DNA of 34,165 nt from the IMG/VR virus record IMGVR_UViG_3300048588_000506, positions 1 through 34,165 of that record; one strand, written 5' to 3'. Origin of the DNA: a virus. Below the pieces are notes generated by a model. That model searched no databases and was not told the origin of the DNA. It was given only the letters and a program-made list of their open reading frames with translations. Shown here one piece after another: positions 7,847 through 32,669 of this stretch; the stretch's first letter is position 1, and the number at the start of each line of letters is the position of its first letter. A program made the translations under genes and the position numbers.

Positions 7847-7855
7847 TGCTACAAT
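7847..7855 (+). promoter_or_regulatory. Extended -10 promoter, TGCTACAAT, leaderless
   Basis: TGn plus TACAAT ends 9 bases before the ATG at 7865, so the transcript would begin within a few bases of the start codon. There is no ribosome site. Confidence 0.6.
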
Positions 7856-7864
7856 TTAGGACGT

Positions 7865-8536
7865 ATGGATATTGTCTATCCGTTGAAGCGCACCGGCTTC
7901 AATCGTGAACTCCGCTATTCCCTCCGCTCCCTTAGAAACCTCCCGCACCGCCACGTTTTCATAGCCGGGGATGCGCCGTCGTGGGTTCGGAACGTGATCC
8001 ACCTACCGGTGCCGCAGCGCGGCACCAAGTACCAGAACTCCCGTGCCAACATTCTCACCGCCGCTCGCGATCCCCGCGTCTCCAGGGATTTCATCCTGAT
8101 GAACGACGACTTTTACGTGCTGTCGCGGCAGAAGACTGTGAAGCCCATGCACATCGGAGACATGGATGCCTTCATGGCGACTTTCCCGTTCCGTGGAGCC
8201 TATTGGGATTTGATGGTGAAGACGCGCTTGCTCCTCAGCGATCTCGGCATCGGCCGGCCGAAGTTCTACGAGCTCCACGTACCCTGCGTTTACAACAGGA
8301 AGAAGCTGCTCGCCATGGTGGAGCGGCTGGATGGCCACGAGTATATGATGAGGACCGTATACCATAACCTTTATGGCTCAGGCGGTAGGGGGCGGGATGA
8401 TGTAAAGAAGCACAAGCGTGCCCAGGAGATCGTGGAAACGGACTACCTGTCATCGTCGAACGGAATGATAAAGAAGCGAGCGTTCAAGGCATGGCTCAAC
8501 GAGCGGTTTGGCGAGGTGTGCGAGTATGAGGCGTGA
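7865..8536 (+). CDS. Stealth-like sugar-phosphate transferase
   Basis: The 223-aa protein starts MDIVYPLKRTGFNRELRYS and contains RDFILMNDDFYVL at about residues 75-87. These two stretches look like the CR1 and CR2 regions of Stealth proteins, which transfer sugar phosphates onto capsular or surface polysaccharides; the NDD would hold the metal or nucleotide. A frame extension to 7820 is possible but would run through the T-arm-like hairpin and the -10 element, so I start at 7865. In a phage such a gene could modify the host surface or a virion glycan. The family call is by motif memory and is moderate. Confidence 0.6.
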   Translation: MDIVYPLKRTGFNRELRYSLRSLRNLPHRHVFIAGDAPSWVRNVIHLPVPQRGTKYQNSRANILTAARDPRVSRDFILMNDDFYVLSRQKTVKPMHIGDMDAFMATFPFRGAYWDLMVKTRLLLSDLGIGRPKFYELHVPCVYNRKKLLAMVERLDGHEYMMRTVYHNLYGSGGRGRDDVKKHKRAQEIVETDYLSSSNGMIKKRAFKAWLNERFGEVCEYEA

Positions 8537-8631
8537 AATTAGCGGCTCAGTCAGTCGACGCTTGGGCTATTTTCAATTATTGTGGGCATGAGATATAGTC
8601 TACTTGCCCCGCAGCAACCGTAGGTTTTGCA

Positions 8632-9018
8632 ATGGCGAAGTCGAGATTCCGCCCGCTCCATGATCGCGTCGTTGTCCGACGCGTAGAATCCGAGGAGCGG
8701 ACCCGAGGCGGCATTATCATTCCCGATACCGCCAAAGAGAAGCCGCTCGAAGGCGAAATTGTTGCGGTTGGTTCGGGTGCCCGAGACGAGACAGGCAAGC
8801 TTGTCCCGCTGGATGTCCGGTCGGGTGATCGTGTCCTCTTTGGAAAGTGGTCTGGCACAGAGGTGAAACTCAACGGTGAAGAGCTCCTTATTCTGAAGGA
8901 GTCCGACATCATGGGGATAATCGGGGGAGGAGGGAGGGTATACCTACGAGGCGGCGGCCTCGCGGGTGATCCCGGGACTGGCTCAGAGCCTCGACCGACT
9001 AAGCGCCGGCGCAAGTAG
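8632..9018 (+). CDS. groES: Co-chaperonin GroES with a basic C-terminal extension
   Basis: Residues 5-95 are a standard Gro[21 protein letters not shown], the mobile-loop contact [10 protein letters not shown] that docks on GroEL, and [20 protein letters not shown]. It closely resembles rhizobial GroES. Normal GroES is about 95-105 residues; this one has 128, ending in a Gly-rich then Arg/Lys-rich tail ([12 protein letters not shown]). No groEL follows, so it must work with host GroEL, as phage co-chaperonins do for coat protein folding. It lies shortly before the packaging and coat genes. Low-quality ribosome site; a TATAGT-type -10 lies about 40 bases upstream. Confidence 0.9.
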
Positions 9019-9021
9019 CTT

Positions 9022-10053
9022 ATGCTTTCCAGCCTGCCCAAGCTCGCAGACCGGGCGTTCATCATCGGCTTCCTGTTGCCGGCGGTGCTATTTCTCGTCG
9101 GGTTCTACGTCGTCTTTTCTGACATCGAGGCTGTTGCCAAGGCCGCGGAAGCAGCGTTTGCAAAGGAAGCGCTTGAAACTTTTGTCTTCGCGGCCGTCGT
9201 GGCTTGGCTCTTGGCGATATCGCTTTCGATTTTAAATCACGGCCTCCTCAGGGCTTTTGAGGGGTATCGATTTCCCATCCGCCGGTTCAAGGCGAAGCAG
9301 ATAAAGTCCTTTCGTGAGATCAACGCTAAAATCACCGAGCTAGATAAGCAGTGGAGCGACATGGGGCGTGCCTTCCCGGCCGAAAAGCAAAAGCAACACG
9401 CCCTCCTACTGCGTGCATTCGTAAGCACTTTCCCCTCGGAAGAGCGACTGGTGCTCTCAACTCGATTCGGAAATGCAATTCGAGCCTTCGAGGACTACTC
9501 ACGAGCCGTTTATGGAGCGGACAGCATTCCTCTTTGGAACCATCTTGCCGCCATACTGAACGATCGCTTCGCACAGGAACTCGAAGATGCGCGTACACAT
9601 GTAAACAGCCTCATCAACCTGTCGTTTCTTTCCGCAGTTATCTCGTTGTTGGCCATCCTACGTTTTCTTCTTGAACTGCCTTGGAGCACGTCTCCTTCGC
9701 TCTATTGGCTGATTGTCGCTCCATGGTCATTACTCACGATATTTGGTGCGGGGGCTGTGATTTCGCGACTGGCATATCTATTGGCAATAGAACGTGCGAT
9801 CGCATGGGGCAGCGTCGTAAAGGCAGCGTTTGATTGCTTCCTACCTGAGCTGGCAGTGAAGCTTGGCTACAATTTGCCTGATAGTCCTAAGCTGCGACGT
9901 GCTTTCTGGAATGAGTTTAGTAAGCAGGCGATTTTTCACTTGCCGCTAAAGCGTGAACGCTGGCTGGCGAAGAAAACTCCCACAACAGCCGCAAAACGGC
10001 AATCTGCAACGTCTAAGGCAAAGTCACAAAACCTAAGAAGTAGGGGAAAATAG
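9022..10053 (+). CDS. Membrane protein, four predicted helices, unknown function
   Basis: This 343-aa protein has hydrophobic segments at about residues 13-33, 50-70, 195-217 and 225-252. A long charged helical region lies between the second and third, and the C-terminal tail is very basic. It begins 3 bases after groES without a ribosome site of its own, so it is probably coupled to it. GC content is visibly lower than in the phage structural genes, a sign of separate origin. In this position, between an orphan groES and the terminase, it is likely an accessory gene such as a membrane-based exclusion or defence factor. That is inference; I recognise no family. Confidence 0.6.
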   Translation: MLSSLPKLADRAFIIGFLLPAVLFLVGFYVVFSDIEAVAKAAEAAFAKEALETFVFAAVVAWLLAISLSILNHGLLRAFEGYRFPIRRFKAKQIKSFREINAKITELDKQWSDMGRAFPAEKQKQHALLLRAFVSTFPSEERLVLSTRFGNAIRAFEDYSRAVYGADSIPLWNHLAAILNDRFAQELEDARTHVNSLINLSFLSAVISLLAILRFLLELPWSTSPSLYWLIVAPWSLLTIFGAGAVISRLAYLLAIERAIAWGSVVKAAFDCFLPELAVKLGYNLPDSPKLRRAFWNEFSKQAIFHLPLKRERWLAKKTPTTAAKRQSATSKAKSQNLRSRGK

Positions 10054-10075: not shown

Positions 10076-10084
10076 TGGTATGCT
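10076..10084 (+). promoter_or_regulatory. Extended -10-like element, TGGTATGCT, leaderless
   Basis: It lies 6 bases before the terminase small-subunit ATG. The hexamer TATGCT is a weaker match than others in the set, but spacing and the TGn agree. Confidence 0.4.
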
Positions 10085-10090
10085 TTTGGC

Positions 10091-10501
10091 ATGGCGCGGC
10101 CAACGAAATACGACAAGCGCTTCATAAAGAACGTCAATGACTATCTCATTGACTGCGAGGATCAGATCGAGGAGTATCACCGTACGCGCGGCGAGAAGTC
10201 CGATACCTATGATCGCCTGGTGCACGTGAAGCTACCCACGGTCGAGGGTTTCGCTCGATACATCGGCGTGAACAAGACCACTCTCTACGAGTGGGCTGAT
10301 CGCTACGCCGCATTTTCCAACGCTTTGGAGTTGATCGTTTCGGTTCAGAAGGACCGGCTCATCAACCACGGCCTGTCCGGTGACTATAATCCGGTGATCG
10401 CGAAGCTAATACTTTCCGCCAACCATGGCATGAGCGAGAAGTACGAAGTGAAGGAGCGTCACACACTAATTCTAGATGAAGGAGAAACAGGTACGGTTTA
10501 G
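10091..10501 (+). CDS. terS: Terminase small subunit
   Basis: This 136-aa protein begins MARPTKYDKRF and contains a helix-turn-helix (VEGFARYIGVNKTTLYEWAD, about 52-71). It then has LINHGLSGDYNPVIAKLILSANH, a pattern I know from phage small terminases that recognise the genome packaging site. Its 3' end overlaps the large-subunit gene by 26 bases, the usual pairing. No ribosome site; the -10 element at 10076 implies a leaderless message. It opens the virion gene block. Confidence 0.82.
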   Translation: MARPTKYDKRFIKNVNDYLIDCEDQIEEYHRTRGEKSDTYDRLVHVKLPTVEGFARYIGVNKTTLYEWADRYAAFSNALELIVSVQKDRLINHGLSGDYNPVIAKLILSANHGMSEKYEVKERHTLILDEGETGTV

Positions 10502-11873
10502 TGACCTCGCTCACTTCACCGCAAAACAGAATAGCGCCGACCAGCTCGTACAGAGCCACAAATACGTCCTCTATGGCGGCGCCATGGGCGGCGGCAAGTC
10601 GTACTGGCTGCGCTGGCAACTCATCAAACTCCTTCTTCGCTGGGCCAAGGCTGGCCGCACAGGAGTCATCGTCGGCCTGTTCTGCGAAGACTATCCGGCG
10701 CTCAAAGACCGCCACCTTTCCAAGATCGGCAAGGAGTTCCCGTCGTGGATCGGCACCTATCACGCCGACCACAAAGAGCACGGCCGCTCATTTATCCTGA
10801 AGCCGGAATACGGCTCCGGCGTCATCGCCTTCCGCAACCTGGACGACCCGTCGAAATACCAGTCAGCCGAGTTCGCCGCCATCGGCATTGATGAGCTGAC
10901 CAAGAACCCGGAGGAGGTGTTCGACGATCTGCGCACCCGTATGCGCTGGCCTGGCATCGTCGACGTGCGCTTCCTCGCCGCCACCAACCCAGGCGGCATC
11001 GGCCATGCCTGGGTGAAGAAGAAGTGGATCGAGGGCATCCATGAGGAGAACGAGCTGGAGGCCGACGAGTTCGCCTACCTGCCGGCGCTCGCGGCCGACA
11101 ATCCACACCTCGACCCGTCCTATCTCCGCTCACTTTCCGGCCTTCCCGAGGATAAGCGCAAGGCCTTCCTCGAAGGCGATTGGGATATCTTCAAAGGGCA
11201 GTATTTCAGCGAGTGGCGGAAGGCGCTGCACGTGGTGGAGCCGTTCAATCCGCACGAGTTCTGGTACAAATTCGTCTCGATCGACTACGGCTACGACGCT
11301 CCCTCGGCCGTGTACTGGCATGGCATCGACGGCGATGGTGTCGACTACGTCTACCGCGAGCTGTACCGGAACAAGCTGACCTACGAGCAACTGGCGGCCG
11401 AGATCGTCGCCATGACACCGGCTCACGAGGAGATCGCCTATTGGGTGGCGGACCCGGCCATTTGGGCGAAGAAGGGCGAAACCGAATTGTCTGGCATGGA
11501 GTTGATGTACAACAAGCACCGGGAAGTCACCGGTCGCGGCATCAACATCGTCAAGGGCAACAATGACCGCATCAACGGTTGGAACCTGCTCCGCGAGTAC
11601 CTGAAGCCGTTCCAGCAGCAGCACCACATCATCGCCAAGCTGCAAGTGTTCTCGACCTGCACGGAGCTGATCCGCACGCTGCCGTCCCTCATCTACGACA
11701 AGCACCGCGTCGAAGACCTGGATAGCGACGGCGAGGACCACGGTGCCGACAGCGTCCGCTACGGCGTCATGTCCCGGCCGCGCAAGGCACCGAAGGCGGT
11801 GGACCCGGTGACCGCTATCCTTGCCCGCCGCAAGGCCCCGTCACCAGCTGGAATGAATGTGGAGCTGGACTAG
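10476..11873 (+). CDS. terL: Terminase large subunit (packaging ATPase-nuclease)
   Basis: This 465-aa protein has all expected motor and nuclease motifs. Walker A is GGAMGGGKS (34-42), Walker B is AIGIDE with D139 and E140, and the coupling motif is ATNP (169-172). The RNase H-like nuclease has acidic residues D270 (SIDYGYD), D326 (VADP) and D425 (HGADSVRYG). It threads DNA into the prohead through the portal and cuts it. Length is normal for the Terminase_3/Terminase_6-like groups. It starts inside the small-subunit gene and ends 18 bases before the portal start. The unbroken motifs suggest a functional protein. Confidence 0.93.
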   Translation: MKEKQVRFSDLAHFTAKQNSADQLVQSHKYVLYGGAMGGGKSYWLRWQLIKLLLRWAKAGRTGVIVGLFCEDYPALKDRHLSKIGKEFPSWIGTYHADHKEHGRSFILKPEYGSGVIAFRNLDDPSKYQSAEFAAIGIDELTKNPEEVFDDLRTRMRWPGIVDVRFLAATNPGGIGHAWVKKKWIEGIHEENELEADEFAYLPALAADNPHLDPSYLRSLSGLPEDKRKAFLEGDWDIFKGQYFSEWRKALHVVEPFNPHEFWYKFVSIDYGYDAPSAVYWHGIDGDGVDYVYRELYRNKLTYEQLAAEIVAMTPAHEEIAYWVADPAIWAKKGETELSGMELMYNKHREVTGRGINIVKGNNDRINGWNLLREYLKPFQQQHHIIAKLQVFSTCTELIRTLPSLIYDKHRVEDLDSDGEDHGADSVRYGVMSRPRKAPKAVDPVTAILARRKAPSPAGMNVELD

Positions 11874-11874
11874 G

Positions 11875-11883
11875 TGCTATAAT
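11875..11883 (+). promoter_or_regulatory. Extended -10 promoter, TGCTATAAT, leaderless
   Basis: A perfect TATAAT with TGn lies 8 bases before the portal ATG at 11892. No -35 is recognisable at 17 bases upstream and there is no ribosome site. Confidence 0.65.
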
Positions 11884-11891
11884 TTCCATGC

Positions 11892-13655
11892 ATGCCTAAA
11901 CGCGAATACGACCTCATCAAACAGATACGCGGAGAGATCAGCGACTTCTATTCAAAGCGCATCCCCATCACCGTCGTGCCGGAGGATCAGGGCCGCGGTG
12001 AGTTCACCTACGAGTTCTCGCAGCGCGAGACGGTCGGCCTGATCGACCTATACTACAACTCCCAATTCCGCTCGGGGAAGTATGACCGCGAGGGCCGACA
12101 GAAGATATTCCTCAACGTCGGCAAGTTCCGCACCGACGTGGCGGAGATGCAGATCGACATCGACATCGCCGACTACCGCTTCCTGCCTGATTCCTCGGAC
12201 CTGTGGTCGCCCTGGCTCATGTCCCGCGACTTCCACCAATGGGCGCAGGACCATGACTTTGCGCAGACTATCAACAGCTTCGGCGCTGACCTCCCGCGCT
12301 ACGGCACATGTGTCTCGAAGCGGGTGGGCAACGATGTCATGCGCACCTCGATCGGCCGCCTCATCAACACGCAGAACGCCGAGAGCCTGAAGAAGGCGGC
12401 GCTAGGCGGCGGCTTCGTCATCGAAGCGCTTCAGATGACGCCGCACGAGATGGAGCAATATCCGGATTGGAACCTCGACGGGCTCCAGGACAGCGATCTC
12501 CAGGGCGCCGTCTACGAGCGCTATGGCCTCATCTGCCCGGCCCACATCAAGCTGGCGAAAGACCAGGAGCCCGAGGAGGGCGATTGGGACGAATGGTTTC
12601 TCGGCCTCTCCGTCATCACCACCGACATCCAGAAGAAGGAGAAGAACGGCGCTTTGGTTTTCGCCGAGAAGATCGACGAGAAGGATTTCCCGTACGAGGA
12701 GGCTCACTGGCAGCGCCAGGACGGCCGCTGGCTAGGCATCGGCGAGATGGAGAACCAGTTTATGAACCAGCTGGCCGCCAACGTCTCCATGCACCTGCGG
12801 CAGAAGTCCATGTACTGGTCCGCGAAGAAGATTTTCACCAAGACGATAGCGGAGGGGCCGAACAATCTGGCCAAGGACGTTGCCGATGGTGGTGTCGTCG
12901 ATCTTGGTGCCAACGGCTCCATGAACGTCGTCAACACCAGCACCCAGCATCTCGGCGACTTCAATTCCTTCGACAACCGCATCGAGGCGAACGCCGACAA
13001 GACCTCCTTCACATATGAGGCCGCCACCGGCGAAAGCCCGAAGGCCGGTACGCCGTTCTCTCTCCAGGTGCAGCTCGATAGGACACTCCAGAAGCACTAC
13101 GGCAAGAAGCGCGAGAACTTCGGCCTTTTCCTCAAGCGCGCCTTCTTCAATCACCAGGTCGAGATTTTCAAACGAAAGAGCCGCAAGGCCCACACGCTCA
13201 CCTTCGCCTACACCGACGACGAGGCCGAACTGCTGCGCGAGGCGATGGTGCTGGCGCACGTCTCCGAGCGGAAGATGAAGCACCTCTTGGCCGGCAAGGT
13301 GAAGCTGAAGGCCGAACTGGAGGCTGATATCCGCGAAGAGCTGTCCCGCTCGCCGTACCTGATCGTCGACATTCCGGACAGCTTCTACGACAACGCCAAA
13401 TATCACACGAAGCTCATCATCACCGGCGAGGAGCAGAACGTCGGCGCGGATATGCAGACCATGGTGACGTTGTGGCAGACCTTGCAGCAGGCGGGCGACC
13501 CGCGCGCCGAGAAGGTGTTGGAGCGCATCATGTCGTTTACCGGACAAAACCTGCGGCTCCTCGCCGGCGCTCGGCCGGCCCAAGCTGTGGCACCGGCCGC
13601 TCCCGCCGTGCCTGCCAGCCCCGTAACCCCACAATTCAATGCTACAGCGCAGTGA
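11892..13655 (+). CDS. Portal protein (probable)
   Basis: A 587-aa protein lies directly after terL and before scaffold and coat genes, which is the invariant place of the portal. The length fits podovirus-type portals. Features include a long N-terminal alpha/beta region, helical segments around 295-330 (IGEMENQFMNQLAANVSMHL), and an Ala/Pro-rich C-terminal tail that may be disordered. I see no unmistakable motif, so the call is by position, size and composition. Its 3' end overlaps the next small gene by 17 bases. Confidence 0.72.
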   Translation: MPKREYDLIKQIRGEISDFYSKRIPITVVPEDQGRGEFTYEFSQRETVGLIDLYYNSQFRSGKYDREGRQKIFLNVGKFRTDVAEMQIDIDIADYRFLPDSSDLWSPWLMSRDFHQWAQDHDFAQTINSFGADLPRYGTCVSKRVGNDVMRTSIGRLINTQNAESLKKAALGGGFVIEALQMTPHEMEQYPDWNLDGLQDSDLQGAVYERYGLICPAHIKLAKDQEPEEGDWDEWFLGLSVITTDIQKKEKNGALVFAEKIDEKDFPYEEAHWQRQDGRWLGIGEMENQFMNQLAANVSMHLRQKSMYWSAKKIFTKTIAEGPNNLAKDVADGGVVDLGANGSMNVVNTSTQHLGDFNSFDNRIEANADKTSFTYEAATGESPKAGTPFSLQVQLDRTLQKHYGKKRENFGLFLKRAFFNHQVEIFKRKSRKAHTLTFAYTDDEAELLREAMVLAHVSERKMKHLLAGKVKLKAELEADIREELSRSPYLIVDIPDSFYDNAKYHTKLIITGEEQNVGADMQTMVTLWQTLQQAGDPRAEKVLERIMSFTGQNLRLLAGARPAQAVAPAAPAVPASPVTPQFNATAQ

Positions 13656-13893
13656 ACATGAGCAGCAGGTATTCGCCGCGTTGGCCGAAGGCAGCGAGGG
13701 AACGGTGCTGCTTGGCTACCTTCGCCGCCTGGTCGCGCACGTGACCGATGCCCGGCAGATCAAAGAGCAGGGCGGCGATATGAACATCGCCATCGAGGCG
13801 GCGGCCCGCGCAGCTGGTATAATCGAGGAGAACCTTATCGAGCCGTTGTCTCGTGTGCAGCACCACCAGGGCGAGCACGAGCCGATGGACTAG
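13639..13893 (+). CDS. 84-aa hypothetical protein of the head gene cluster
   Basis: The ATG lies within the last codons of the portal gene, in a different frame, which suggests translational coupling. The protein is helical and mildly acidic (EHEQQVFAALAEGSEGTVLL, then a long AIEAAARAAGIIEENLI helix). There is no membrane segment. The DNA contains a perfect TGGTATAAT at 13815-13823, but no start codon follows it closely, so it may be chance or an internal promoter. Function unknown; head assembly is likely from position. Confidence 0.6.
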   Translation: MLQRSEHEQQVFAALAEGSEGTVLLGYLRRLVAHVTDARQIKEQGGDMNIAIEAAARAAGIIEENLIEPLSRVQHHQGEHEPMD

Positions 13894-13978
13894 CCGTTTT
13901 GTGGGAGTCCGGCAGAACAACCACGTTATGAGAGCGAGCCCGCGCTTCACCAAATCGGGTTAATACCTTTTAGCGTTT

Positions 13979-14557
13979 ATGGAAGAAGAGCAAAACGTCC
14001 AGGACGAGCACGTAGAAGAGGAAGTGGAAGATGAGGAAGAGGTAGAGGAGGAGGACCCCGAAGAGGAGCCGGAAGGCGACTCCAAGGGCGACGACCCCTA
14101 TGCCGGCCTCTCTGAATCCGACCTGAAGAAGCGTCTCGCCAAGGCTGAAAAGGCCATTGTGAAAAACAAGGGCAAGCAGCCGAAGGAGCCCAAGGCTCCC
14201 ATTACCAAGCAGCCCAAAGGCGATGAGATCCCCGAATGGGGACAGAAGATCATCCAATCCGAAGAGAAGCGGTCGTTCGGTTACGAACACCAGCTCTCCC
14301 CGGAGCAGGTGGACGCCGTCTTCCGCTATAACGGCGGCAAGGCACCAGATGAGAAGTTTCTGGAGCGTCCCGAAGTGAAAGCGATGGTCAAGGCGATCGG
14401 CTCGAAAGACCGTGTCGCTCTCAACACCCCTAAGGGCGGCACCGGCGTCGTGTACAAGGGCAAGACCTTTTCGGAGGTCGCGTCCGACGAGAAGTCCTCA
14501 ACGGCCGACAAACAAGCGGCATTCGAGGGCGTCCGGAAGAAGCACGGCGTCGGCTAA
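13979..14557 (+). CDS. Scaffolding-like acidic protein
   Basis: This 192-aa protein has an extremely Glu-rich first 40 residues (VEEEVEDEEEVEEEDPEEEP), then a Lys-rich, low-complexity middle and a short ordered C-terminus (VYKGKTFSEVASDEKSS). An acidic, mostly disordered or helical protein encoded immediately before the coat gene is the typical scaffold that templates prohead assembly and then leaves. I see no protease motif. No ribosome site precedes the ATG. The call is inferred from position and composition. Confidence 0.65.
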   Translation: MEEEQNVQDEHVEEEVEDEEEVEEEDPEEEPEGDSKGDDPYAGLSESDLKKRLAKAEKAIVKNKGKQPKEPKAPITKQPKGDEIPEWGQKIIQSEEKRSFGYEHQLSPEQVDAVFRYNGGKAPDEKFLERPEVKAMVKAIGSKDRVALNTPKGGTGVVYKGKTFSEVASDEKSSTADKQAAFEGVRKKHGVG

Positions 14558-26200: not shown

Positions 26201-26274
26201 GCTATCCACAGGGTATGGTTGCGGTATGCCCTCATAGGTATATACTATAGGGTATTATAAGTTAAGCCCATTTA

Positions 26275-26415
26275 ATGAAGAAACACCAATGCGAGCGCTG
26301 TAACCACGAGTGGTATCCGCGCTCGCCAATCAAGCCCACAGTTTGTCCGAACCCAAAGTGTAAGTCACCTTACTGGAATAAGCCCCGAAAAGATGCAGAG
26401 GAGAAGAGCAACTAA
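26275..26415 (+). CDS. 46-aa zinc-ribbon protein
   Basis: The protein MKKHQCERCNHEWYPRSPIK continues to CPNPKCKSPYWNKPRK. CxxC (6-9) and CxxxxC (24-29) make a zinc ribbon followed by SPYWNKPR, a signature of short phage and plasmid proteins known from many genomes, probably DNA- or RNA-binding regulators. There is no ribosome site. The upstream 50 bases are AT-rich (TATATACTATAGGGTATTAT) and probably hold the promoter. It opens a run of five tiny genes and overlaps the second by 23 bases. Confidence 0.75.
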   Translation: MKKHQCERCNHEWYPRSPIKPTVCPNPKCKSPYWNKPRKDAEEKSN

Positions 26416-26554
26416 CATCGACTTCAAGTTCGGCCACTCTCGCATGCGCGACGAGTTGGCCAGTCGGCACCAGGGCAAGGCGTTCGACGTTTTCGTCCTA
26501 TGCCCGCTCATTGTGGCGGTCGCGGCCGTCGTCCTAAGCGCGGTCGCTGTATGA
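26393..26554 (+). CDS. 53-aa tail-anchored membrane protein
   Basis: The frame starts within the zinc-ribbon gene and ends in an ATGA overlap with the next. The first 30 residues are basic and soluble (MQRRRATNIDFKFGHSRMRD) and the last 20 form one membrane helix (VLCPLIVAVAAVVLSAVAV). That makes it a likely tail-anchored inner-membrane protein. No family is recognised. The overlaps on both sides support it being real. Confidence 0.55.
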   Translation: MQRRRATNIDFKFGHSRMRDELASRHQGKAFDVFVLCPLIVAVAAVVLSAVAV

Positions 26555-26667
26555 TCCCTTTCGATTTTGAGACCATGACCGCCGCTGAGGAGATGGACGA
26601 TAACAGTGGTGACGGCCCGTGCCTAGAGAAGCGACTTGAGAGTTATAAGGGTAACCCGTTCGAGTAG
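26551..26667 (+). CDS. 38-aa acidic peptide
   Basis: It starts in an ATGA overlap and ends at TAG 26665-26667. The sequence MIPFDFETMTAAEEMDDNSG is strongly acidic, with a more basic C-terminus (KRLESYKGNPFE). No family recognised; a small host-interacting peptide is possible. Support comes only from the tight gene packing. Confidence 0.45.
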   Translation: MIPFDFETMTAAEEMDDNSGDGPCLEKRLESYKGNPFE

Positions 26668-26668
26668 C

Positions 26669-26806
26669 ATGAAGGAACGAGACAATCCCTGCCGGCACCT
26701 TCGCGTCGAACGAGGGAAGAGCGGCCTAAGCAGCAAATTTATCAGCATCCTCGCGACGGCGGTTGGCCGCGACGAGGAGTACACCCGCAAGCTTTTCGAC
26801 CTATGA
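26669..26806 (+). CDS. 45-aa basic peptide
   Basis: The ATG lies one base after the preceding stop and the frame ends in an ATGA overlap. The peptide MKERDNPCRHLRVERGKSGL is basic with one short helix near the C-terminus (FISILATAVGRDEEYTRKLF). No family recognised. Context supports translation. Confidence 0.45.
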   Translation: MKERDNPCRHLRVERGKSGLSSKFISILATAVGRDEEYTRKLFDL

Positions 26807-26928
26807 AGCACGAGATCAAATGTGCAGCGGTATCGCCGTACAAGATACCGAAAGACACCCGCACTCACGCGGAGATTGCGACGGAGCAAGCGCACGAGGA
26901 GGTAGCTAGCAGCCACATGATCGATTAA
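26803..26928 (+). CDS. 41-aa peptide
   Basis: It begins in an ATGA overlap with the previous gene and ends 17 bases before the SSB-like gene. MKHEIKCAAVSPYKIPKDTR is followed by an acidic helix (AEIATEQAHEEVASS). No family recognised. It is the last of the chain of tiny genes and may be expressed with the DNA-metabolism genes that follow. Confidence 0.45.
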   Translation: MKHEIKCAAVSPYKIPKDTRTHAEIATEQAHEEVASSHMID

Positions 26929-26945
26929 TCACTATTTCAACATAT

Positions 26946-27632
26946 ATGGCACGAGAAGAAGTAAGAGACCCATCAACCTATTACAGCATCATCGACGGGA
27001 CGTTCCGCACCCAGGTCGATCAAAACGACCCATATGCCGTCCGCCGCGAGTGGAAGGCCACGGATGGCAAGACCGGCGTGAAGTTCGAGCGCGTCGTCAC
27101 CGCTCTCATCGGCTTCATCACCGACATCTCATTCTTTGAGGGCGAGTACGGGCAGCAGATCATCATCTCTCTGGATAAGGGCGCAGACGGGAAGACGCCG
27201 AAAATCGCGCTTAACACCGCCAGCCGCGAGGCCGAGGGCTTTATGAAGCGCTTGCCGGCCATCGATCTCGCCAAGGAGGTGCGCCTTCGCCCGTACTCGT
27301 TCACCGACCAGTCGGATGGCGACGAGGTGCGCGGCATCGAGGTCAATCAGGAGGACGAGAACGGCGACTTCAAACGGAAGATCGGAGACTTCTTCCGCGA
27401 CCCCGAGACGAAAGCTTTCCTAAACGGCTTCCCGGCTCCAGAGGGCGACACCACCGACTACACCAAGGACCACTGGAAGTTGTATTTCACCAAGACCCGC
27501 ATCTTCTTGGCGGACTACACCAAGCAGAACATCATCCCGAAGATCGCGGTGACGGAGCACCCGCAGGGCACCAGCCAGGTCGAGGCGGCGGCACCAGCTG
27601 GCGAGCCGAACCCGAACGATATTCCGTTCTAG
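26946..27632 (+). CDS. Phage single-stranded DNA-binding-type protein
   Basis: This 228-aa protein ends in PNDIPF, the acidic-then-IPF tail by which bacterial and phage SSBs dock host repair and replication proteins. The body is beta-rich (FERVVTALIGFITDISF, then GQQIIISLDKGADGKTPKIA), compatible with an OB-fold though not of the standard SSB type. The stretch before the tail is Pro/Ala-rich and flexible. It lies just upstream of a winged-helix gene and the RusA resolvase, forming the only clear DNA-metabolism block of the element. No ribosome site is seen. Confidence 0.65.
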   Translation: MAREEVRDPSTYYSIIDGTFRTQVDQNDPYAVRREWKATDGKTGVKFERVVTALIGFITDISFFEGEYGQQIIISLDKGADGKTPKIALNTASREAEGFMKRLPAIDLAKEVRLRPYSFTDQSDGDEVRGIEVNQEDENGDFKRKIGDFFRDPETKAFLNGFPAPEGDTTDYTKDHWKLYFTKTRIFLADYTKQNIIPKIAVTEHPQGTSQVEAAAPAGEPNPNDIPF

Positions 27633-27635
27633 GCC

Positions 27636-27884
27636 ATGCGTTACCCGAAGCCAGGGACACAGGCCGATAAGGTGCTGCAAACCCTGCTAGCGGCCGACGG
27701 CGGATGGGTGTCGAAGCAGGTGTTCGTTCGGCAGCTCTTTCTCACCCAGGCCGGCGCTCGCATCTTTGAGCTGGAGCGCGAGTACGGCTGGAAGATCGAG
27801 CACAGTGATTTCACCGACGAGCACGGCTTCCGCAGCTATCGGATCGTGCGGGAGGAGCCGCATACGATGCCACTGGCGATTTAA
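27636..27884 (+). CDS. 82-aa winged-helix-type DNA-binding protein
   Basis: Three bases after the SSB-type stop. The protein has KVLQTLLAADGGWVSKQVFV, then LTQAGARIFELEREYGWKIE and HGFRSYRIV: a helix-turn-helix followed by a beta wing. The pattern matches short phage helix-turn-helix proteins. It could regulate the neighbouring genes or assist DNA processing. There are no catalytic residues. Confidence 0.65.
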   Translation: MRYPKPGTQADKVLQTLLAADGGWVSKQVFVRQLFLTQAGARIFELEREYGWKIEHSDFTDEHGFRSYRIVREEPHTMPLAI

Positions 27885-27924
27885 TGGCGTACTCGGCCGA
27901 ATCCAATCATGCGGGGCGCGGGGG

Positions 27925-27954
27925 TTGAAATCCAAGAATTTGAACCTGTAAACT
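27925..27954 (+). promoter_or_regulatory. Sigma-70-type promoter, TTGAAA-18-TAAACT
   Basis: A -35 and -10 pair with 18-base spacing lies upstream of the small membrane protein gene at 27992, which has a GAGG ribosome site. It contrasts with the leaderless phage promoters. Confidence 0.45.
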
Positions 27955-27991
27955 GTGACTTCCGCTGTTAGGGGCGCGATGAGGCAACAAA

Positions 27992-28231
27992 GTGGACAAG
28001 GCTGAGATCGACAAGGAAGCTCGTGAGAGTATCGCGTTTAGGCGGCGATTCGCCTTGGTTCTTGCGCGCGAAGAAGAAATACTGGACGAACTGAGATACA
28101 AAAACTCACCGGAAGGTAAGAGGGTAGCCAAGAGGCTGAGAAGGCGCGGTTTCATCAACTTTCTATTGTTTTTCTTTGCTGTACTCCTTATTGGGCTGAT
28201 TTTGCAGATGATTAGAGAGACGCCTACCTAA
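27992..28231 (+). CDS. 79-aa single-span membrane protein
   Basis: It starts at GTG 27992 behind GAGG. The first 50 residues are very charged and helical (EEEILDELRYKNSPEGKRVA), followed by one membrane helix at about 53-73 (FINFLLFFFAVLLIGLILQM). Lower GC than the flanking phage genes and a conventional promoter suggest an accessory gene inserted between the winged-helix and RusA genes. Function unknown. Confidence 0.55.
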   Translation: MDKAEIDKEARESIAFRRRFALVLAREEEILDELRYKNSPEGKRVAKRLRRRGFINFLLFFFAVLLIGLILQMIRETPT

Positions 28232-28248
28232 TCGCAATCTTGGCGGGA

Positions 28249-28257
28249 TGCTAGAAT
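28249..28257 (+). promoter_or_regulatory. Extended -10 promoter, TGCTAGAAT, leaderless
   Basis: It lies 6 bases before the GTG start of the RusA-like gene. Here the leaderless start codon is GTG rather than ATG. Confidence 0.55.
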
Positions 28258-28263
28258 AGAAGC

Positions 28264-28641
28264 GTGACCATCACCATTGAGGGCGAGCTGACCGACCTTA
28301 ACACCTACATCAATGCCGAGCGCACCAATCGCTTCATCGGCGCGCAGCTCAAGCGCAAGGAGACGGAGAGAGTGGCGCTAGAGACACGGGCGGCCAAGGT
28401 GCCGCCTGTTTCTCGTTATCCCGTCACCATCTCTTTCCGATGGTTTTCGAAGGACGCAAGGAAGGACATCGACAACGTGGCCTTCGCCAAAAAGTTCATC
28501 CTGGACGGCTTGGTCCTGGCCGGCGTCTTGCAGGAGGACAGCCGGAAGCACGTGGCCGGCTTCGGGAGTGAGGAGTTTTATATCGACAAAGCCAGGCCGA
28601 GGGTCGAGGTCAGTATCGCGACTGGCACGCGCGGTCTCTAG
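28264..28641 (+). CDS. rusA: RusA-type Holliday junction resolvase
   Basis: This 125-aa protein has the RusA catalytic pattern: KDARKDIDNVAFAKKFILDG (about 60-79) supplies two of the conserved Asp residues and VLQEDSRKHV (about 84-93) the third. Length matches RusA. It cleaves branched DNA, resolving recombination or replication intermediates before packaging. It starts at GTG 28264, which fits the -10 element and the family N-terminus. It acts naturally with the SSB-type protein just upstream. Confidence 0.87.
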   Translation: MTITIEGELTDLNTYINAERTNRFIGAQLKRKETERVALETRAAKVPPVSRYPVTISFRWFSKDARKDIDNVAFAKKFILDGLVLAGVLQEDSRKHVAGFGSEEFYIDKARPRVEVSIATGTRGL

Positions 28642-28761: not shown

Positions 28762-29310
28762 ATGAGAATCCGTAGTATTTTCATATTGTTAGCCCTATAT
28801 GCGGTGGGAACAGGCCCCGCATTACCGCAGGACAACGTGTTCAAGGGTATCCTGGGCGGAATACTAAAGGGCGCTCTCTCTGGTGGTTCGCCGGAGCAAA
28901 ATAACCGAAATCAACAGCCTCAGTATCAGGGCAATTCCACGCGCTCCGCGCAAGCAATTCTGCCACCTGCAGATAGGCACACGTTGAACGACGAAATGGT
29001 GCATTATTTAATCGCTGATTTCGTTGCCAATACTAACTCACGTTCTACCACCGGCGCGCCATGCGGCAACTTCTTCGAGATACCGGAGGTTAGAGTGGTA
29101 GATCGCCGCATTCGTAGCGATACAGCCAGCTTGCAAATTCAGCTTACGGCCAGACCTAAGACAAATGTGGAGCCGTTTTTCATACTGATGTGCTTTGGCA
29201 TCAACACGCAGCGTCCGTGGCGTGCAGGTGGCACGAACGTAATGCAGGGCGTCTACGATTTCGAGTTGTGGGACGATGGCTGGAGGGTTACTCCGCGCCG
29301 TCCACGCTAG
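28762..29310 (+). CDS. Exported protein of unknown function (accessory gene)
   Basis: I start at ATG 28762, behind GAGGAAT, giving a signal peptide MRIRSIFILLALYAVGTGPA. The mature N-terminus is Gly-rich (FKGILGGILKGALSGGSPEQ), followed by a Gln/Asn-rich linker and a C-terminal domain with two cysteines (PCGNFF, FILMCFG) that could be joined. It is lower in GC than the phage genes. It faces the minus-strand block that begins at 29346 with no clear terminator between. Function unknown; periplasmic or surface location expected. Confidence 0.6.
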   Translation: MRIRSIFILLALYAVGTGPALPQDNVFKGILGGILKGALSGGSPEQNNRNQQPQYQGNSTRSAQAILPPADRHTLNDEMVHYLIADFVANTNSRSTTGAPCGNFFEIPEVRVVDRRIRSDTASLQIQLTARPKTNVEPFFILMCFGINTQRPWRAGGTNVMQGVYDFELWDDGWRVTPRRPR

Positions 29311-29345
29311 GTCCGACGAACTATCATAGGCAATCAGCGCCGCCG

Positions 29346-29636
29346 TCACCGCGTCTTCACCGGGTCAGCATTCGACTGGTTTGGCGCATTCCCCAGGGCG
29401 TCAGCCTCGATGACTGCCGCTTCGAACGCCTTGCGCGCCGCCAGCGCCCGCTTTTGGTCACCAGTGGCCTCTAACGCCTTGAGGAGCGCCTGCCTGGCGG
29501 CGCGATGTTTGGCGGTGTTGGGGTCGCCCGGCCAATCAGTAAGAAGGATGCGGGCGGCGCGCTCGGGGGAGGTGACGTTGAACGTCATGCCCGCCGATAG
29601 GCGCACCGGAACGCTGTCGCTCCACCAACCTGGCAT
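29346..29636 (-). CDS. DUF982-type protein
   Basis: This 96-aa protein starts at ATG 29636 (MPGWWSDSVPVRLSAGMTF) behind GGAG. The pattern of W..PV at the start, a middle with ERAARILLTDWPGD, then HRAARQALLKALEATGDQKR and ARKAFEAAVIEADAL matches DUF982, a small family concentrated in Rhizobiales chromosomes and plasmids. Its function is not known. It is the last gene of a four-gene minus-strand run. It is one of the best hints to the host group. Confidence 0.7.
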   Translation of the reverse strand: MPGWWSDSVPVRLSAGMTFNVTSPERAARILLTDWPGDPNTAKHRAARQALLKALEATGDQKRALAARKAFEAAVIEADALGNAPNQSNADPVKTR

Positions 29637-29687
29637 ACGCATACTCCACGAACCGCGACTCAATGCGCGGTGGTGGAGACAGTTGCG

Positions 29688-29819
29688 TCAGCCGAGCCAG
29701 ATAATCATCGCGAGGAGCGTGGCCATGGCCGCGCCGGCCACGAACGCCCAGCCCGAGCCCGGTCCCCATGTCGGGGAATACGCGGGCTTCGGCGGGCGTT
29801 TGTCGTAGCCGGAGACCAT
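29688..29819 (-). CDS. 43-aa single-span membrane peptide
   Basis: It starts at ATG 29819 behind GAGAGGAG. The first 25 residues are Pro/Gly-rich and basic (MVSGYDKRPPKPAYSPTWGP) and the last 18 are one membrane helix (WAFVAGAAMATLLAMIIWLG). It lies 7 bases after the stop of 29827-30231 on the same strand. No family recognised. The good ribosome site supports it. Confidence 0.55.
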   Translation of the reverse strand: MVSGYDKRPPKPAYSPTWGPGSGWAFVAGAAMATLLAMIIWLG

Positions 29820-29826
29820 TCTCCTC

Positions 29827-30231
29827 TCAGTGCCGCCCTCTGATCCATTTCGGAACGCTGAGCGGGCCGTGTTTGATGCGGCTCGTCGGGTTGCCGCGCC
29901 GTACCCACACCTTCTCCATCGTCTGGCCCTTCTGGCAAGCCTTTGGATCGAACGGCTCGCCTTCAAAGTACGCGGCGAACTCGGCGGCTTGCGCCGCCTC
30001 CCGGAAGCAGAAGATGCGCATGTCTTCATGCAGGAGGTCAAAGCCTTCCCACTTCATATAGACGCGGTAACTTTGGGGATGTTCACCAAACCGTTCCGTG
30101 CAGAACTGGTTGATGGGCTCAAAATTTTCCATCGTGCAGAATAGGTGCCAGATGGCGACTTGGTGCGGGAAGTTCTGTTCGATGTCGCGCTGATGCGAAC
30201 GCTGTCGCATTCGCGATGTCGTGACCGTCAC
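29827..30231 (-). CDS. 134-aa hypothetical protein
   Basis: It starts at GTG 30231, overlapping the stop of the preceding minus-strand gene by four bases (GTGA). An ATG seven codons later is the alternative start. The protein is mixed alpha/beta with many aromatics (HQVAIWHLFCTMENFEPINQ, then RIFCFREAAQAAEFAAYFEG) and a basic C-terminus. There is no membrane segment. Its charged and aromatic makeup looks like a globular cytoplasmic protein. No family recognised. Confidence 0.6.
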   Translation of the reverse strand: MTVTTSRMRQRSHQRDIEQNFPHQVAIWHLFCTMENFEPINQFCTERFGEHPQSYRVYMKWEGFDLLHEDMRIFCFREAAQAAEFAAYFEGEPFDPKACQKGQTMEKVWVRRGNPTSRIKHGPLSVPKWIRGRH

Positions 30232-30449
30232 GCCCCACCTTCCACGCGCCGGCCGTGGTAGCCACGGGTGTAGCCGTACGAGTTGGTGGCCTGGGCGATA
30301 TACAGCTCGTTTTCGAGCAGGCTGTTGGTGAGCAGGAGTTCCTTCACGGCCGCGCGGGCGCTGCCGAATTGCGCGATCACCTTCTCGGCTTCGTGGTCGA
30401 GGTTCACGGCTCCGCCGCTCGGTGCCATCGCTGGTTCCGCCATAGTCAT
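30228..30449 (-). CDS. 73-aa hypothetical protein, first gene of a minus-strand operon
   Basis: It starts at ATG 30449 with GGAG upstream. The protein has a long helix (EAEKVIAQFGSARAAVKELL) followed by LLENELYIAQATNSYGYTRG, a pattern that looks conserved in rhizobial small proteins. It leads the operon 30449-29346. A GTTC-N7-GTTC element 58 bases upstream suggests possible LexA control. Function unknown. Confidence 0.6.
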   Translation of the reverse strand: MTMAEPAMAPSGGAVNLDHEAEKVIAQFGSARAAVKELLLTNSLLENELYIAQATNSYGYTRGYHGRRVEGGA

Positions 30450-30506
30450 CTCCGTCGATTTGATCGGACGAGCATGTCACCGACCAACGGACGGCGCAAG
30501 GATTTT

Positions 30507-30521
30507 GTTCCTAGTTTGTTC
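30507..30521. promoter_or_regulatory. LexA-type site, GTTC-N7-GTTC
   Basis: GTTC at 30507-30510 and 30518-30521 with a 7-base spacer is the consensus of alphaproteobacterial LexA boxes. It lies 58 bases upstream of the minus-strand operon starting at 30449. About one such match is expected by chance in a window this size, so location is the main support. Confidence 0.4.
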
Positions 30522-30566
30522 GCGGCAGAAAGGCGTGGCTCTTATGATCCTGCCTCGTTCACAGTC

Positions 30567-31763
30567 CTATTGTCTGCTCAACGTGACCATTTGGCGTTGC
30601 ACAGCTTCATCCACGAGCTGGCAGGCGTCTTGTGGGTTGTCGTCAGGGTTGGCCAGTGATCGTGTAATGAGCTTGCCGTTCTCTCGTTTAGTCCGCATCG
30701 GCAGTCCGATCGCCCCGACAAAATATGCTGCACGATCAACATCGACATTGGACGGGTCTATGGAGACGGCAAACTCCGAAACCTCATCTGCATTAATCTC
30801 TATCCGAAGGCCGCCGCCTCCGATGCGAGTTCTTTCAAAAAGTCGGTAGCCGGAAGTGCCCGTCCACTTTCCCGTTTCGAGCGCAAGACATTCCGTCGCG
30901 CGCGTGGCGTTGGCCCCTACTTGATCGATGAAGCGCCCAAAGAGCATCCCTTCGATATTCACTTCATTGCACCTGTCGCAGTAGTCGCCCTCTTCAAGTA
31001 GTAGGCATTGCTTCTTTTGGTTAGTAACAAAACACACGACGGTGCCCGGATCAGCCTGAAAGTTGTGTTCACGAATACAATCTTTCAGAACACGATCGCT
31101 CGTAACATCCTCCGTTGGACGACATTTCGCTGCGGCCAGTGCGGCCGAAGTTTCGAAAAACGTAGCAACAAAAGCAGGATCATACCGCTGACGAAAGGTA
31201 AGTATCAATTTATCCGAACCACCGTCCTTGCGTACGTCAACTCTCTGCAACTCGATTTGAAACGCACTCCAAGGAAATGTTTCAAGACTGCGATCAAAAA
31301 TCTCGCCGCGTGCCTTTTTTTGAAGCAGCGCAACCGAAGCTTCCGCACCGCTTCTTTGAAGTTCGCGGCTCAAGAGAGTACCTTTTATCTCTCCGCCTCC
31401 TCCAGCCACTAGTCCCAAGAAATTCTCAATTCGAGAAGCGGATACAATAACCTGCGCTTCAATTTCGTGCTGGCCGTCCCTCACGCTTGACGAGATTTCT
31501 TGATAGGCTTCTATATAGCCGTTTACCGTGCTGAAGACCCGGTCCCTAACGACAGCATCCCCACTAATTTGCCGATCAGCTACAACCAACTGCTTCAGGG
31601 TATATTGAAGCGCGTTGCGGACGGCGTCGGCCTTAGCTGCTGACGGCGTTTGACCCCTGCCGGTAACGCGGACGGTAATATCTGGCGACTCGGCAAAAGA
31701 TGTTGATGCGAAAAGAAGTGTGGCTAGCATCACTAGCCACGACTTTAAATTGAAGCTCCGCAT
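30567..31763 (-). CDS. Exported protein with FlgT/LPP20-like N-terminal domain
   Basis: I start at ATG 31763 (MRSFNLKSWLVMLATLLFAS), behind GGAGAG, giving a clean signal peptide. Residues about 25-115 have the pattern VTGRGQTPSAAKADAVRNAL ... VNGYIEAYQEISSSVRDGQH ... VIVSASRIENFL. This resembles the repeat domain of FlgT, LPP20 and similar envelope proteins that form rings or bind partners. The rest, about 280 residues, has several cysteines and is not recognised. It is paired with the exported gene upstream (27-bp gap), so they probably work together in the envelope. Confidence 0.6.
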   Translation of the reverse strand: MRSFNLKSWLVMLATLLFASTSFAESPDITVRVTGRGQTPSAAKADAVRNALQYTLKQLVVADRQISGDAVVRDRVFSTVNGYIEAYQEISSSVRDGQHEIEAQVIVSASRIENFLGLVAGGGGEIKGTLLSRELQRSGAEASVALLQKKARGEIFDRSLETFPWSAFQIELQRVDVRKDGGSDKLILTFRQRYDPAFVATFFETSAALAAAKCRPTEDVTSDRVLKDCIREHNFQADPGTVVCFVTNQKKQCLLLEEGDYCDRCNEVNIEGMLFGRFIDQVGANATRATECLALETGKWTGTSGYRLFERTRIGGGGLRIEINADEVSEFAVSIDPSNVDVDRAAYFVGAIGLPMRTKRENGKLITRSLANPDDNPQDACQLVDEAVQRQMVTLSRQ

Positions 31764-31789
31764 AGAGCTCTCCATCGGCAATTGAGATA

Positions 31790-32446
31790 TCACCAGTCTG
31801 TCTGCTTTGTACGTCGTACCTCAGAGCGCTGTATGTCCAGCCGCAGTGTGCCCGGCTTTTGCTCTGGCAAAGCTGGCGCTGACGTGGTCGGTGATGCAAT
31901 CAACGCTTGCAACTCCGAAGCGGCTGCGAGGCTCTTCTTACTGATGCCGACCACTGTCCAGGCTTCGGACTTCGACTCGTCATATCCGCTTTCGAGCACG
32001 ATGACGCCCTTCAGCGTGCCGGCAGCAAACGAGCCTGTTAGCTCTGTGAGCGTCTCCGACACGACCCCTTCGTCCACTTTGGAAAGCGTGCCTTCACCGC
32101 CGTTTTCTCGCCGCTGCGTAGCGCGAGTCACGTCGGACTGGACCTCCGTTACGAGACGCGACGAAGCGCTCATCTGTTCCATGGTTCGAACGAACTGCGC
32201 CTTTGCCTTTTCCTCAGCGATTACCTGAGCTTTGTGAATACCACGGCGGTCCGGAATAACCACTGGCGTACTGTAACGTGAGGACGCTCTTAGTAGTGTT
32301 CCGTCAGGCGCCCACTCAAACTCTACGCCGTTCACGCCAGCTTGCCACGTAAGGCCGCCGTCGCTGCCGACCGATGCCTCGCCGCTAACGGCCGGAACTG
32401 CACCTATCGAGAGAACTGCAACTGCTAGGAAGCGAGATACGCGCAT
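31790..32446 (-). CDS. Exported protein paired with 30567-31763
   Basis: This 218-aa protein starts at ATG 32446 behind GGGAG, with signal peptide MRVSRFLAVAVLSIGAVPAV. The mature part contains KAQVIAEEKAKAQFVRTMEQ and GVIVLESGYDESKSEAWTVV, again LPP20-like envelope features: a helix over a sheet. A Pro-rich C-terminus follows. It is the first gene of a two-gene minus-strand unit whose promoter must lie in the structured region beyond 32446. Lower GC than the phage core suggests acquisition. Function unknown. Confidence 0.6.
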   Translation of the reverse strand: MRVSRFLAVAVLSIGAVPAVSGEASVGSDGGLTWQAGVNGVEFEWAPDGTLLRASSRYSTPVVIPDRRGIHKAQVIAEEKAKAQFVRTMEQMSASSRLVTEVQSDVTRATQRRENGGEGTLSKVDEGVVSETLTELTGSFAAGTLKGVIVLESGYDESKSEAWTVVGISKKSLAAASELQALIASPTTSAPALPEQKPGTLRLDIQRSEVRRTKQTDW

Positions 32447-32491
32447 GAGGGGTCTCCCAGTTGACAGAGAATGAGAACCTATGAGGAGTTT

Positions 32492-32564
32492 GTGTCACAA
32501 GAATGTCTCACAAGCGACACAGTTATCCACAACGTGAGATTGTATCTCGTGATAAGATAATCAT
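32492..32564. other. Candidate replication origin: DnaA box, direct repeats, AT-rich DNA
   Basis: TTATCCACA, a perfect consensus DnaA box, is at 32523-32531. Just before it are two 10-bp direct repeats differing at one base, GTGTCACAAG (32492-32501) and GTCTCACAAG (32505-32514). After it lies an AT-rich stretch. A further inverted TCTCAC-like element (GTGAGA at 32534) follows. Together these resemble a small plasmid-type origin. No Rep gene is adjacent, and the same DNA must also hold the promoter of the minus-strand exported genes. Confidence 0.4.
32550..32558 (+). promoter_or_regulatory. Extended -10-like element, TGATAAGAT, leaderless
   Basis: It lies 6 bases before an ATG at 32565, the same spacing as for the RusA and endopeptidase genes. 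Confidence 0.45.
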
Positions 32565-32669
32565 ATGGCACAAAACACAAACACAATTGGATATTGTCTC
32601 GGCGGGGCAGGTGTTTTGTGCCAACAAAATCACCCTGCCGAGCTAGTACCCAATTGGAAGCACGCTTAA
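32565..32669 (+). CDS. 34-aa leaderless ORF on a structured transcript
   Basis: The frame encodes MAQNTNTIGYCLGGAGVLCQ and a further 14 residues, ending at TAA inside a terminator hairpin. It is preceded by an extended -10 at leaderless spacing. The same DNA is unusually structured: 32566-32578 pairs perfectly with 32611-32623 (13 bp), 32598-32607 pairs with 32633-32642 (10 bp, one G-T), and 32584-32590 pairs with 32650-32656 (7 bp). The first two cross. It may be a small RNA of about 115 bases, a peptide gene, or both. Confidence 0.45.
   Translation: MAQNTNTIGYCLGGAGVLCQQNHPAELVPNWKHA

Follow-up and report, generated by a model that had tools for sequence, protein, structure and literature searches.

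Promoter-like elements at gene starts in the window

The window analysed here is the whole of an IMG/VR virus record, IMGVR_UViG_3300048588_000506, which is 34,165 bases long and was recovered from environmental DNA. On its plus strand, a short element, TGnTAnnnT, lies just upstream of start codons that include those of several late phage genes. The first-pass annotation had listed ten such pairs with the element 5-11 bases before the start codon. All ten are present; nine of the starts are ATG and one, at 28264, is GTG, as had been noted. The gaps between motif and start codon are, in order, 9, 6, 8, 5, 7, 11, 7, 6, 6 and 6 bases.

7847-7867, plus strand: TGCTACAAT, 9 bases before ATG 7865, a phrog_7999 family gene
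10076-10093, plus strand: TGGTATGCT, 6 bases before ATG 10091, terminase small subunit (GP3_package)
11875-11894, plus strand: TGCTATAAT, 8 bases before ATG 11892, a 587-residue protein in the portal position; this placement recurs in relatives
18961-18977, plus strand: TGTTATAAT, 5 bases before ATG 18975 (51 residues); overlaps the preceding gene's stop codon
19118-19136, plus strand: TGATACAAT, 7 bases before ATG 19134, a glycine-rich tail-fibre-like protein
22003-22025, plus strand: TGGTATACT, 11 bases before ATG 22023 (421 residues, no assigned function)
25007-25025, plus strand: TGATATCAT, 7 bases before ATG 25023 (80 residues), with a G+C-rich inverted repeat, seen by eye, just upstream
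25263-25280, plus strand: TGATATAAT, 6 bases before ATG 25278, an M23 peptidase, the lysin
28249-28266, plus strand: TGCTAGAAT, 6 bases before GTG 28264, a RusA-like resolvase
32550-32690, plus strand: TGATAAGAT, followed by a predicted, strongly structured RNA of ~120 nucleotides with a terminator-like hairpin at its end

The frame of the first gene is open from 7820, and its PHROG profile match begins at residue 16, which is ATG 7865.

Placement was assessed on 43 plus-strand starts listed by hand, with the claim already known; a mechanical gene list, in which the called starts are imperfect, was run as a comparison. Ten of the 43 hand-listed starts have the element 5-11 bases upstream; when the upstream DNA was shuffled 2000 times, the mean was 0.20 and no shuffle exceeded 3. 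Thus, the motif is not equally frequent at random positions, and the positional claim holds. At five further starts, a copy lies within 150 bases upstream, at distances of 29, 32, 32, 88 and 143 bases; none lies at 12-28. With the mechanical list, 8 of 44 starts have the element at 5-11 bases, compared with 0-2 in the other 7-base bins counted; in a near-identical run, one of the eight was a doubtful minus-strand frame. Counted from the motif, 10 of the 20 plus-strand copies lie 5-11 bases before an ATG or GTG that opens at least 30 codons (2.2 expected, p 1.6e-5). The same test on the minus strand gives 4 of 14 (1.35 expected), with p 0.04 at 30 codons, 0.007 at 50 and 0.41 at 75. The count of TGNTANNNT on both strands is 34, against 25.8 in shuffles, and 5 of 100 shuffles reach 34. 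The raw frequency of the motif is therefore weak evidence, and its position is strong evidence.

Promoter elements of the extended -10 class are recognised by the sigma 3 domain. TGnTAnnnT fixes just the first, second and last bases of the -10 hexamer, leaving three bases free for a test. At the ten sites, 21 of 30 free positions agree with TATAAT. The figure for the remaining ten plus-strand copies is 14 of 30, and for the minus-strand copies 6 of 42 (ten sites versus minus strand, p 2e-6); some of the other plus-strand copies are probably promoters too. Hexamer scores at the ten sites are 4-6 of 6 (mean 5.1), with TG one base upstream. No -35 element is recognisable, in agreement with the first-pass annotation: judged from sequence alone, the best match averages 2.7 of 6 at the ten sites and 2.72 at random positions. 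The first T of the hexamer lies 11-17 bases before the start codon, which fits the signal of the TA-led class; Zheng et al. 2011 describe a TA-like signal ~10-12 bp upstream of the start of leaderless genes (PMC3160421). The ten elements are thus predicted extended -10 promoters placed for leaderless or near-leaderless transcription. The suggestion that the message would begin at or beside the start codon is consistent with their placement, which would fit normal initiation at, or a few bases from, that codon.

The tenth site is a special case. Starting at 32565, a 136-base stretch folds much better than its shuffled versions (z -5.76; 0 of 200 as good), into a long hairpin followed by a terminator-like hairpin, and the structured RNA at 32550-32690 matches no Rfam family. 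The strength of the fold speaks for a small RNA, and the proposal that 32565 is a gene start is not borne out. It is more likely that the 32550 element drives a small structured RNA than a 34-codon gene, and the 34-codon frame at 32565 is probably accidental.

Elements, coupling and Shine-Dalgarno sites in the late genes

For this comparison, the late core was taken as 26 genes from 10091 to 28264, leaving out the cargo gene at 17136, and the remaining 17 starts were counted separately. Within the late core, eight genes have the element and one has a Shine-Dalgarno-like site. A further 11 have neither signal but overlap the preceding gene or start within 8 bases of its stop. Among the other 17 starts, two have the element (7865 and 32565) and eight have a Shine-Dalgarno-like site (late core versus other starts, p 0.001). 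One of these eight is at 7865, where AGGA lies three bases before the ATG; hence, the claim that all ten starts lack a Shine-Dalgarno site is right in general and wrong for 7865. Two late genes without the element are:

10476-11873, plus strand: terminase large subunit, with no promoter of the extended -10 kind; overlaps the preceding gene
14573-15517, plus strand: major capsid protein, GTG start, with no start-adjacent element in the window or in seven scorable relatives

It had been proposed that terminase, portal, fibre, lysin and resolvase genes would each have their own promoter. In that form the proposal is not supported, as the terminase large subunit, the capsid gene and most other late genes lack the element, and 11 of the 26 overlap or abut the preceding gene. 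Since elements occur at only eight late genes, 11 are coupled by position, and none is found at the terminase large subunit or capsid gene, the late genes are best seen as one run with putative internal promoters and genes that would be translationally coupled.

The element in relatives

No close DNA relatives of the first 25 kb were found among 50,697 phage records, in which the portal and capsid proteins also had no match, and a plasmid DNA search of the window matched only insertion sequence (IS) ends. Single-protein scans of IMG/VR with the portal, gene 7865 and the TraG-like protein gave no confirmed relative; the terminase led to nine distant relatives and the capsid to one. Two-row capsid and two-row portal alignments then gave eleven further loci (twelve with L011), with 33-45% G+C, which make up the first set. 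A nine-row portal alignment gave 70 loci with 65 new locus ids, some on known contigs and several on contigs of 36-40 kb. For counts over all starts, 46 loci of this later set were kept as non-redundant by a DNA-identity rule and split into a closer and a distant half. L121 and L124 were left out as copies of L120 and L123. Because all of these loci are related by descent, they do not provide independent counts. Judging from position and length, they appear to have a common gene order: terminase small subunit, terminase large subunit, portal, a small gene, a scaffold-position gene and capsid. Homology tests of the terminase, portal, scaffold-position and capsid genes found each in part of the loci.

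The first set has ten non-redundant relatives for this comparison, with portal proteins 27-38% identical to that of the window; in five of them, the element precedes the portal start by 7-9 bases. The element is at none of the seven scorable capsid starts (Fisher p 0.04 for portal versus capsid in relatives alone, 0.02 with the window included); L011 and L117 were left out of the capsid count, as their capsid 5' ends look disturbed. In the later set, 57 of 58 loci had a usable portal start and were collapsed to 44 clusters. Seven of these have the element at 5-11 bases, compared with 1, 2, 2, 1, 0 and 0 in the next six 7-base bins. All seven are from the loci nearer to the window. They include L150, which has 62% G+C, the element TGGTATAAT and a GTG portal start.

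The pattern was also assessed at all gene starts, using a strict form of the element, with 5 or 6 matching bases in the hexamer and a gap of 4-11 bases to the start. It is found at 6 of 46 starts in the window (0.08 expected) and at 10 of 162 in the first set (0.47 expected; 0-2 in five other 8-base bins). The Thermus phage phiYS40, used as a positive control, has 5 of 59 (0.16 expected). In the closer half of the later loci there are 12 of 224, against 1, 4, 1 and 0 in the next four 8-base bins, and the gap is 6 bases in 7 of the 12. The strict element is absent from P23-45 (0 of 78), P10VF (0 of 66), PBC5 (0 of 55), lambda (0 of 70) and CRP-13 (0 of 54). It is likewise absent from 64 genes of the distant terminase relatives, 26 genes of L002, 199 genes in Mesorhizobium-order contigs with a terminase match and 554 genes in alphaproteobacterial groES neighbourhoods. 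Even the bare motif, TGNTANNNT, is at 5-11 bases in just 3 of 432 genes in alphaproteobacterial loci.

Shine-Dalgarno-like sites were counted at the usual place and at a control place. The counts are 9 versus 13 of 125 starts in the first set, 19 versus 33 and 13 versus 23 in the closer and distant halves of the later set, and 7 of 42 versus 9 in the window. In eight comparison phages, such sites are ~1.9 to 28 times as frequent as at the control place. Thus, this phage family has no Shine-Dalgarno excess over background. The first set and the closer half of the later set have an excess of putative extended -10 elements next to starts, notably at the portal gene; the distant half does not clearly have one.

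Two candidate observations were set aside. L002, the nearest relative by terminase large subunit (39%), at first appeared enriched (4 of 20); it was not counted because two of the sites proved to lie within genes and Shine-Dalgarno sites are present at its genes. By eye, the portal genes of L135, L137, L144, L152 and L161 had striking terminators that end at the start codon, but a scan of all starts gave no support (closer set, 3 of 220; P23-45, 3 of 67; alphaproteobacterial loci, 3 of 485). That scan covered 47 of the 65 new loci, 18 having been removed by hand, one of them (L143) without good reason.

The relatives also have other features of note. At the 5' end of the capsid gene, where the start looks disturbed, L011 (3796-4275) and L117 (6292-6738) have frames that by eye resemble homing endonucleases; these frames match no Rfam family, and the ATG of the one in L117 is itself preceded, at six bases, by an extended -10 element. 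In L116, L117 and L120, the capsid gene is followed by runs of genes that resemble sugar-modifying enzymes, judging by eye from their N-termini.

Proposed mechanism and alternatives

The motif, its position, the absence of a -35, the scarcity of Shine-Dalgarno sites in late genes and the recurrence of the pattern in some relatives are directly observed. It is likely, in our judgement, that the nine gene-linked elements are extended -10 promoters that give leaderless or near-leaderless messages within the late run. The ordinary housekeeping sigma would read them through the TG and the TATAAT-like hexamer, without a -35. With initiation 6-8 bases past the hexamer, most of the messages would have their 5' end on the start codon, and those of 7865 and 22023 would begin 1-5 bases before it, meaning that the messages would be leaderless or nearly so, with no room for a Shine-Dalgarno site. 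They would then be read from the 5'-terminal AUG or GUG. Genes between the internal promoters would be transcribed from upstream starts and translated mostly by overlap or stop-start coupling. The positions of the 5' ends, the sigma used and the mode of translation are what we infer from the observed features.

Several observations weigh against this reading. Within the window, six late genes (13979, 14573, 15612, 18252, 26275 and 26946) have no element, Shine-Dalgarno site or close coupling, gene 7865 retains its AGGA, and at 22023 the gap of 11 bases would imply a short leader. Minus-strand copies show a weak excess near short frames, which is gone for frames of at least 75 codons. Among relatives, an exact element at 5-11 bases is missing from half of the portal genes in the first set and from 37 of 44 clusters in the later one, and no portal start in the distant half has it. 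The distant half as a whole has 5 of 206 strict elements, against 2, 0, 5 and 3 in the next bins, so enrichment there is not clear. Because most starts in the family carry neither the element nor a Shine-Dalgarno site, the start-adjacent element is not the family's general start signal.

The elements might instead be ordinary internal promoters whose nearness to starts is incidental, feeding downstream genes through long leaders while the adjacent gene is coupled to upstream transcripts. Indeed, five of the nine gene-linked elements lie in or beside the end of the preceding gene, with starts 1-18 bases after its stop, and strong plus-strand extended -10 elements are also found inside genes, at 13815 and 16490. 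However, incidental nearness does not account for distances that cluster at 5-11 bases and skip 12-28, nor for similar distances at portal starts of relatives with only 27-38% identity and in the later set, and the start positions of 7865 and the portal are backed by protein comparison; we regard this explanation as improbable. Chance resemblance in A+T-rich intergenic gaps can draw on a raw motif count that is just mildly above expectation, but it is hardly credible given the tests of position in the window and of portal starts in relatives, together with the match of the free bases to TATAAT.

A different possibility concerns the polymerase rather than the position of the elements. A gp39- or AsiA-like phage factor could displace sigma region 4 and make late transcription dependent on extended -10 elements. 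The complete lack of a -35 signal would suit such a factor, and sigma-displacing factors are reported in phages with extended -10 promoters (PMC7403470). On the other hand, a sequence search of the window found no gp39 or gp76 homologue up to E 1, and no sigma-related or initiation-factor domain was found among 40 window proteins compared with Pfam (a few small frames were not included). Moreover, extended -10 promoters function without such factors, bypassing the -35 with the ordinary sigma according to the same source (PMC7403470). For this reason no special factor is needed, contrary to the suggestion in the first-pass annotation that a phage-specific or alternative initiation factor may be required. 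A fast-diverging phage factor is conceivable, and we consider a modified polymerase rather unlikely. Start-fused promoters read by the ordinary sigma are the preferred explanation.

Relation to known systems

Leaderless expression has been described both in a phage and in the suggested host order. Most middle and late mRNAs of phiYS40 are reported to lack a leader (PMC3594737), and both phages have genes with a -10 element abutting the start codon. The same scan of the first 50 kb of phiYS40 finds 12 of 55 mechanical genes with the element, compared with 1-4 in other bins. However, phiYS40 retains a Shine-Dalgarno excess (17 of 55 versus 7), whereas the present family has none. The strategy of phiYS40, in which most middle and late genes are leaderless, is accompanied by an increase in host IF2 and a decrease in IF3 during infection; in the window, 8 of 26 late-core genes have the element and 11 look coupled. 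A tblastn search with the terminase large subunit, portal and capsid proteins gave no match (E 0.01) within the first 50 kb of either phiYS40 or P23-45. P23-45 is reported to have middle and late promoters of the extended -10 class that act with gp39 (PMC7403470), a likeness to the window, which nonetheless lacks a gp39 or gp76 homologue. The first 50 kb of P23-45 have little start-adjacent signal (2 of 67 mechanical genes) and a strong Shine-Dalgarno excess (41 of 68 versus 12).

There are also bacterial precedents. Bradyrhizobium japonicum is reported to have 192 transcription start sites exactly at start codons, and its leaderless mRNAs have an extended -10 consensus, TGnTA; the authors liken them to leaderless phage genes, citing phiYS40 (PMC4842269). 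The element is the same as in the window, and in the bacterial order indicated by the contig's GroES and IS; the difference is that host genes, a minority of the transcriptome, carry it there, and phage late genes carry it here. Reports also give 171 leaderless transcripts in Sinorhizobium meliloti, from the order suggested as host (PMC3616915), and 375 in Caulobacter, another alphaproteobacterium (PMC4117421). In Deinococcus-Thermus, TANNNT ~6-7 bases before the ORF (open reading frame) is described as acting as a -10 region, which is inactive in Escherichia coli without a -35 (PMC12340547). Compared with that description, TG belongs to the element here, and the hexamer is near TATAAT.

Given these precedents, the mechanism is already known, though uncommon for phage genes, and the phage described here is a new member. 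A literature search, partly of titles and excerpts, found no published description of the family-wide start-adjacent pattern. What is new is a group of relatives without a Shine-Dalgarno excess, in part of which putative start-adjacent promoters are enriched. In this phage lineage, which has no detected homology to Thermus phages, leaderless expression would be predictable from sequence at the portal and other starts of the late run. Should mapped 5' ends bear this out, the family would be a natural test of the translation of leaderless phage messages across hosts. There is also a caution for gene finders that score Shine-Dalgarno sites, as none stand above background in these contigs.

A broader scenario can be proposed, although it is speculative and we think it doubtful. 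A lineage represented by environmental contigs would have lost Shine-Dalgarno initiation in its late genes, with part of it expressing the portal gene, and in this phage eight further genes, from start-fused promoters; its late module could be moved between hosts, and this contig would have settled in an alphaproteobacterium with Shine-Dalgarno cargo. TGnTATAAT and a 5'-terminal AUG are among the least host-specific signals, so the late module could move across hosts that differ in base composition; the family contigs span 31-62% G+C.

Host, cargo and other features

The pointers to a host suggest an alphaproteobacterium. GroES (Cpn10, 8632-9018) matches Mesorhizobium across 98 of its 128 residues with 88% protein identity and continues past this match in a C-terminal extension; its DNA identity is ~75%, so it is not a very recent gain. 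The contig has IS3-type ends, and their best plasmid matches are 95-97% identical and in Hyphomicrobiales. The two ends (1-126 and 34068-34165) correspond to the two ends of one kind of IS3-family element (NZ_CP063363.1, 109479-109604 and 108366-108463), and the contig could be a circle that was opened at a copy of the IS, but no target duplication is seen by eye at the flanks. Other searches are neutral or point elsewhere. Of 397 Mesorhizobium-order genomes, 7 have terminase matches at E 1e-20 or better, and such matches are not specific. A family portal profile found nothing in 385 alphaproteobacterial or 398 Pseudomonadota genomes, a result that is uninformative on virulent phages. Gene 7865 matches 50 phage records, all with actinobacterial hosts, which is neutral or contrary to an alphaproteobacterial host.

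The left-hand genes at 808-4206 (a 138-residue protein, a TraG-like ATPase and Replic_Relax) follow an order also seen in the annotation of a Sulfitobacter plasmid, which points to a phage-plasmid or a module derived from a plasmid. That plasmid is the sole plasmid match for Replic_Relax (35%, 96% covered); the other two genes were compared by order and annotation only. Genes without a Pfam match lie between the phage genes at 7166-7684, 9022-10053, 17136-18200 and 28762-32446. By eye, some start like secreted proteins, and some carry Shine-Dalgarno sites; these interspersed genes look like cargo from a Gram-negative host. One cargo protein had no plasmid match.

Three elements with longer leaders, before 4899, 6004 and Replic_Relax, had also been noted and are present, the first two preceding Shine-Dalgarno sites:

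4858-4901, plus strand: TGGTATGAT, then a leader and Shine-Dalgarno site before ATG 4899 (primase-like); overlaps a minus-strand TGATATAAT
5966-6006, plus strand: TGGTACAAT, then a leader and Shine-Dalgarno site before ATG 6004 (DUF932)
3183-3282, plus strand: TGATATGAT, 88 bases before ATG 3280 (Replic_Relax)

At 4858-4873, two extended -10 elements on opposite strands overlap in a near-palindrome, perhaps a divergent promoter or operator. Another strong extended -10 element, at 26123, lies just before a palindrome followed by T-rich sequence, as seen by eye. Lastly, there is a probable frameshift at 23285-24924, where a long frame from 23449 overlaps the short one at 23285 that precedes it.

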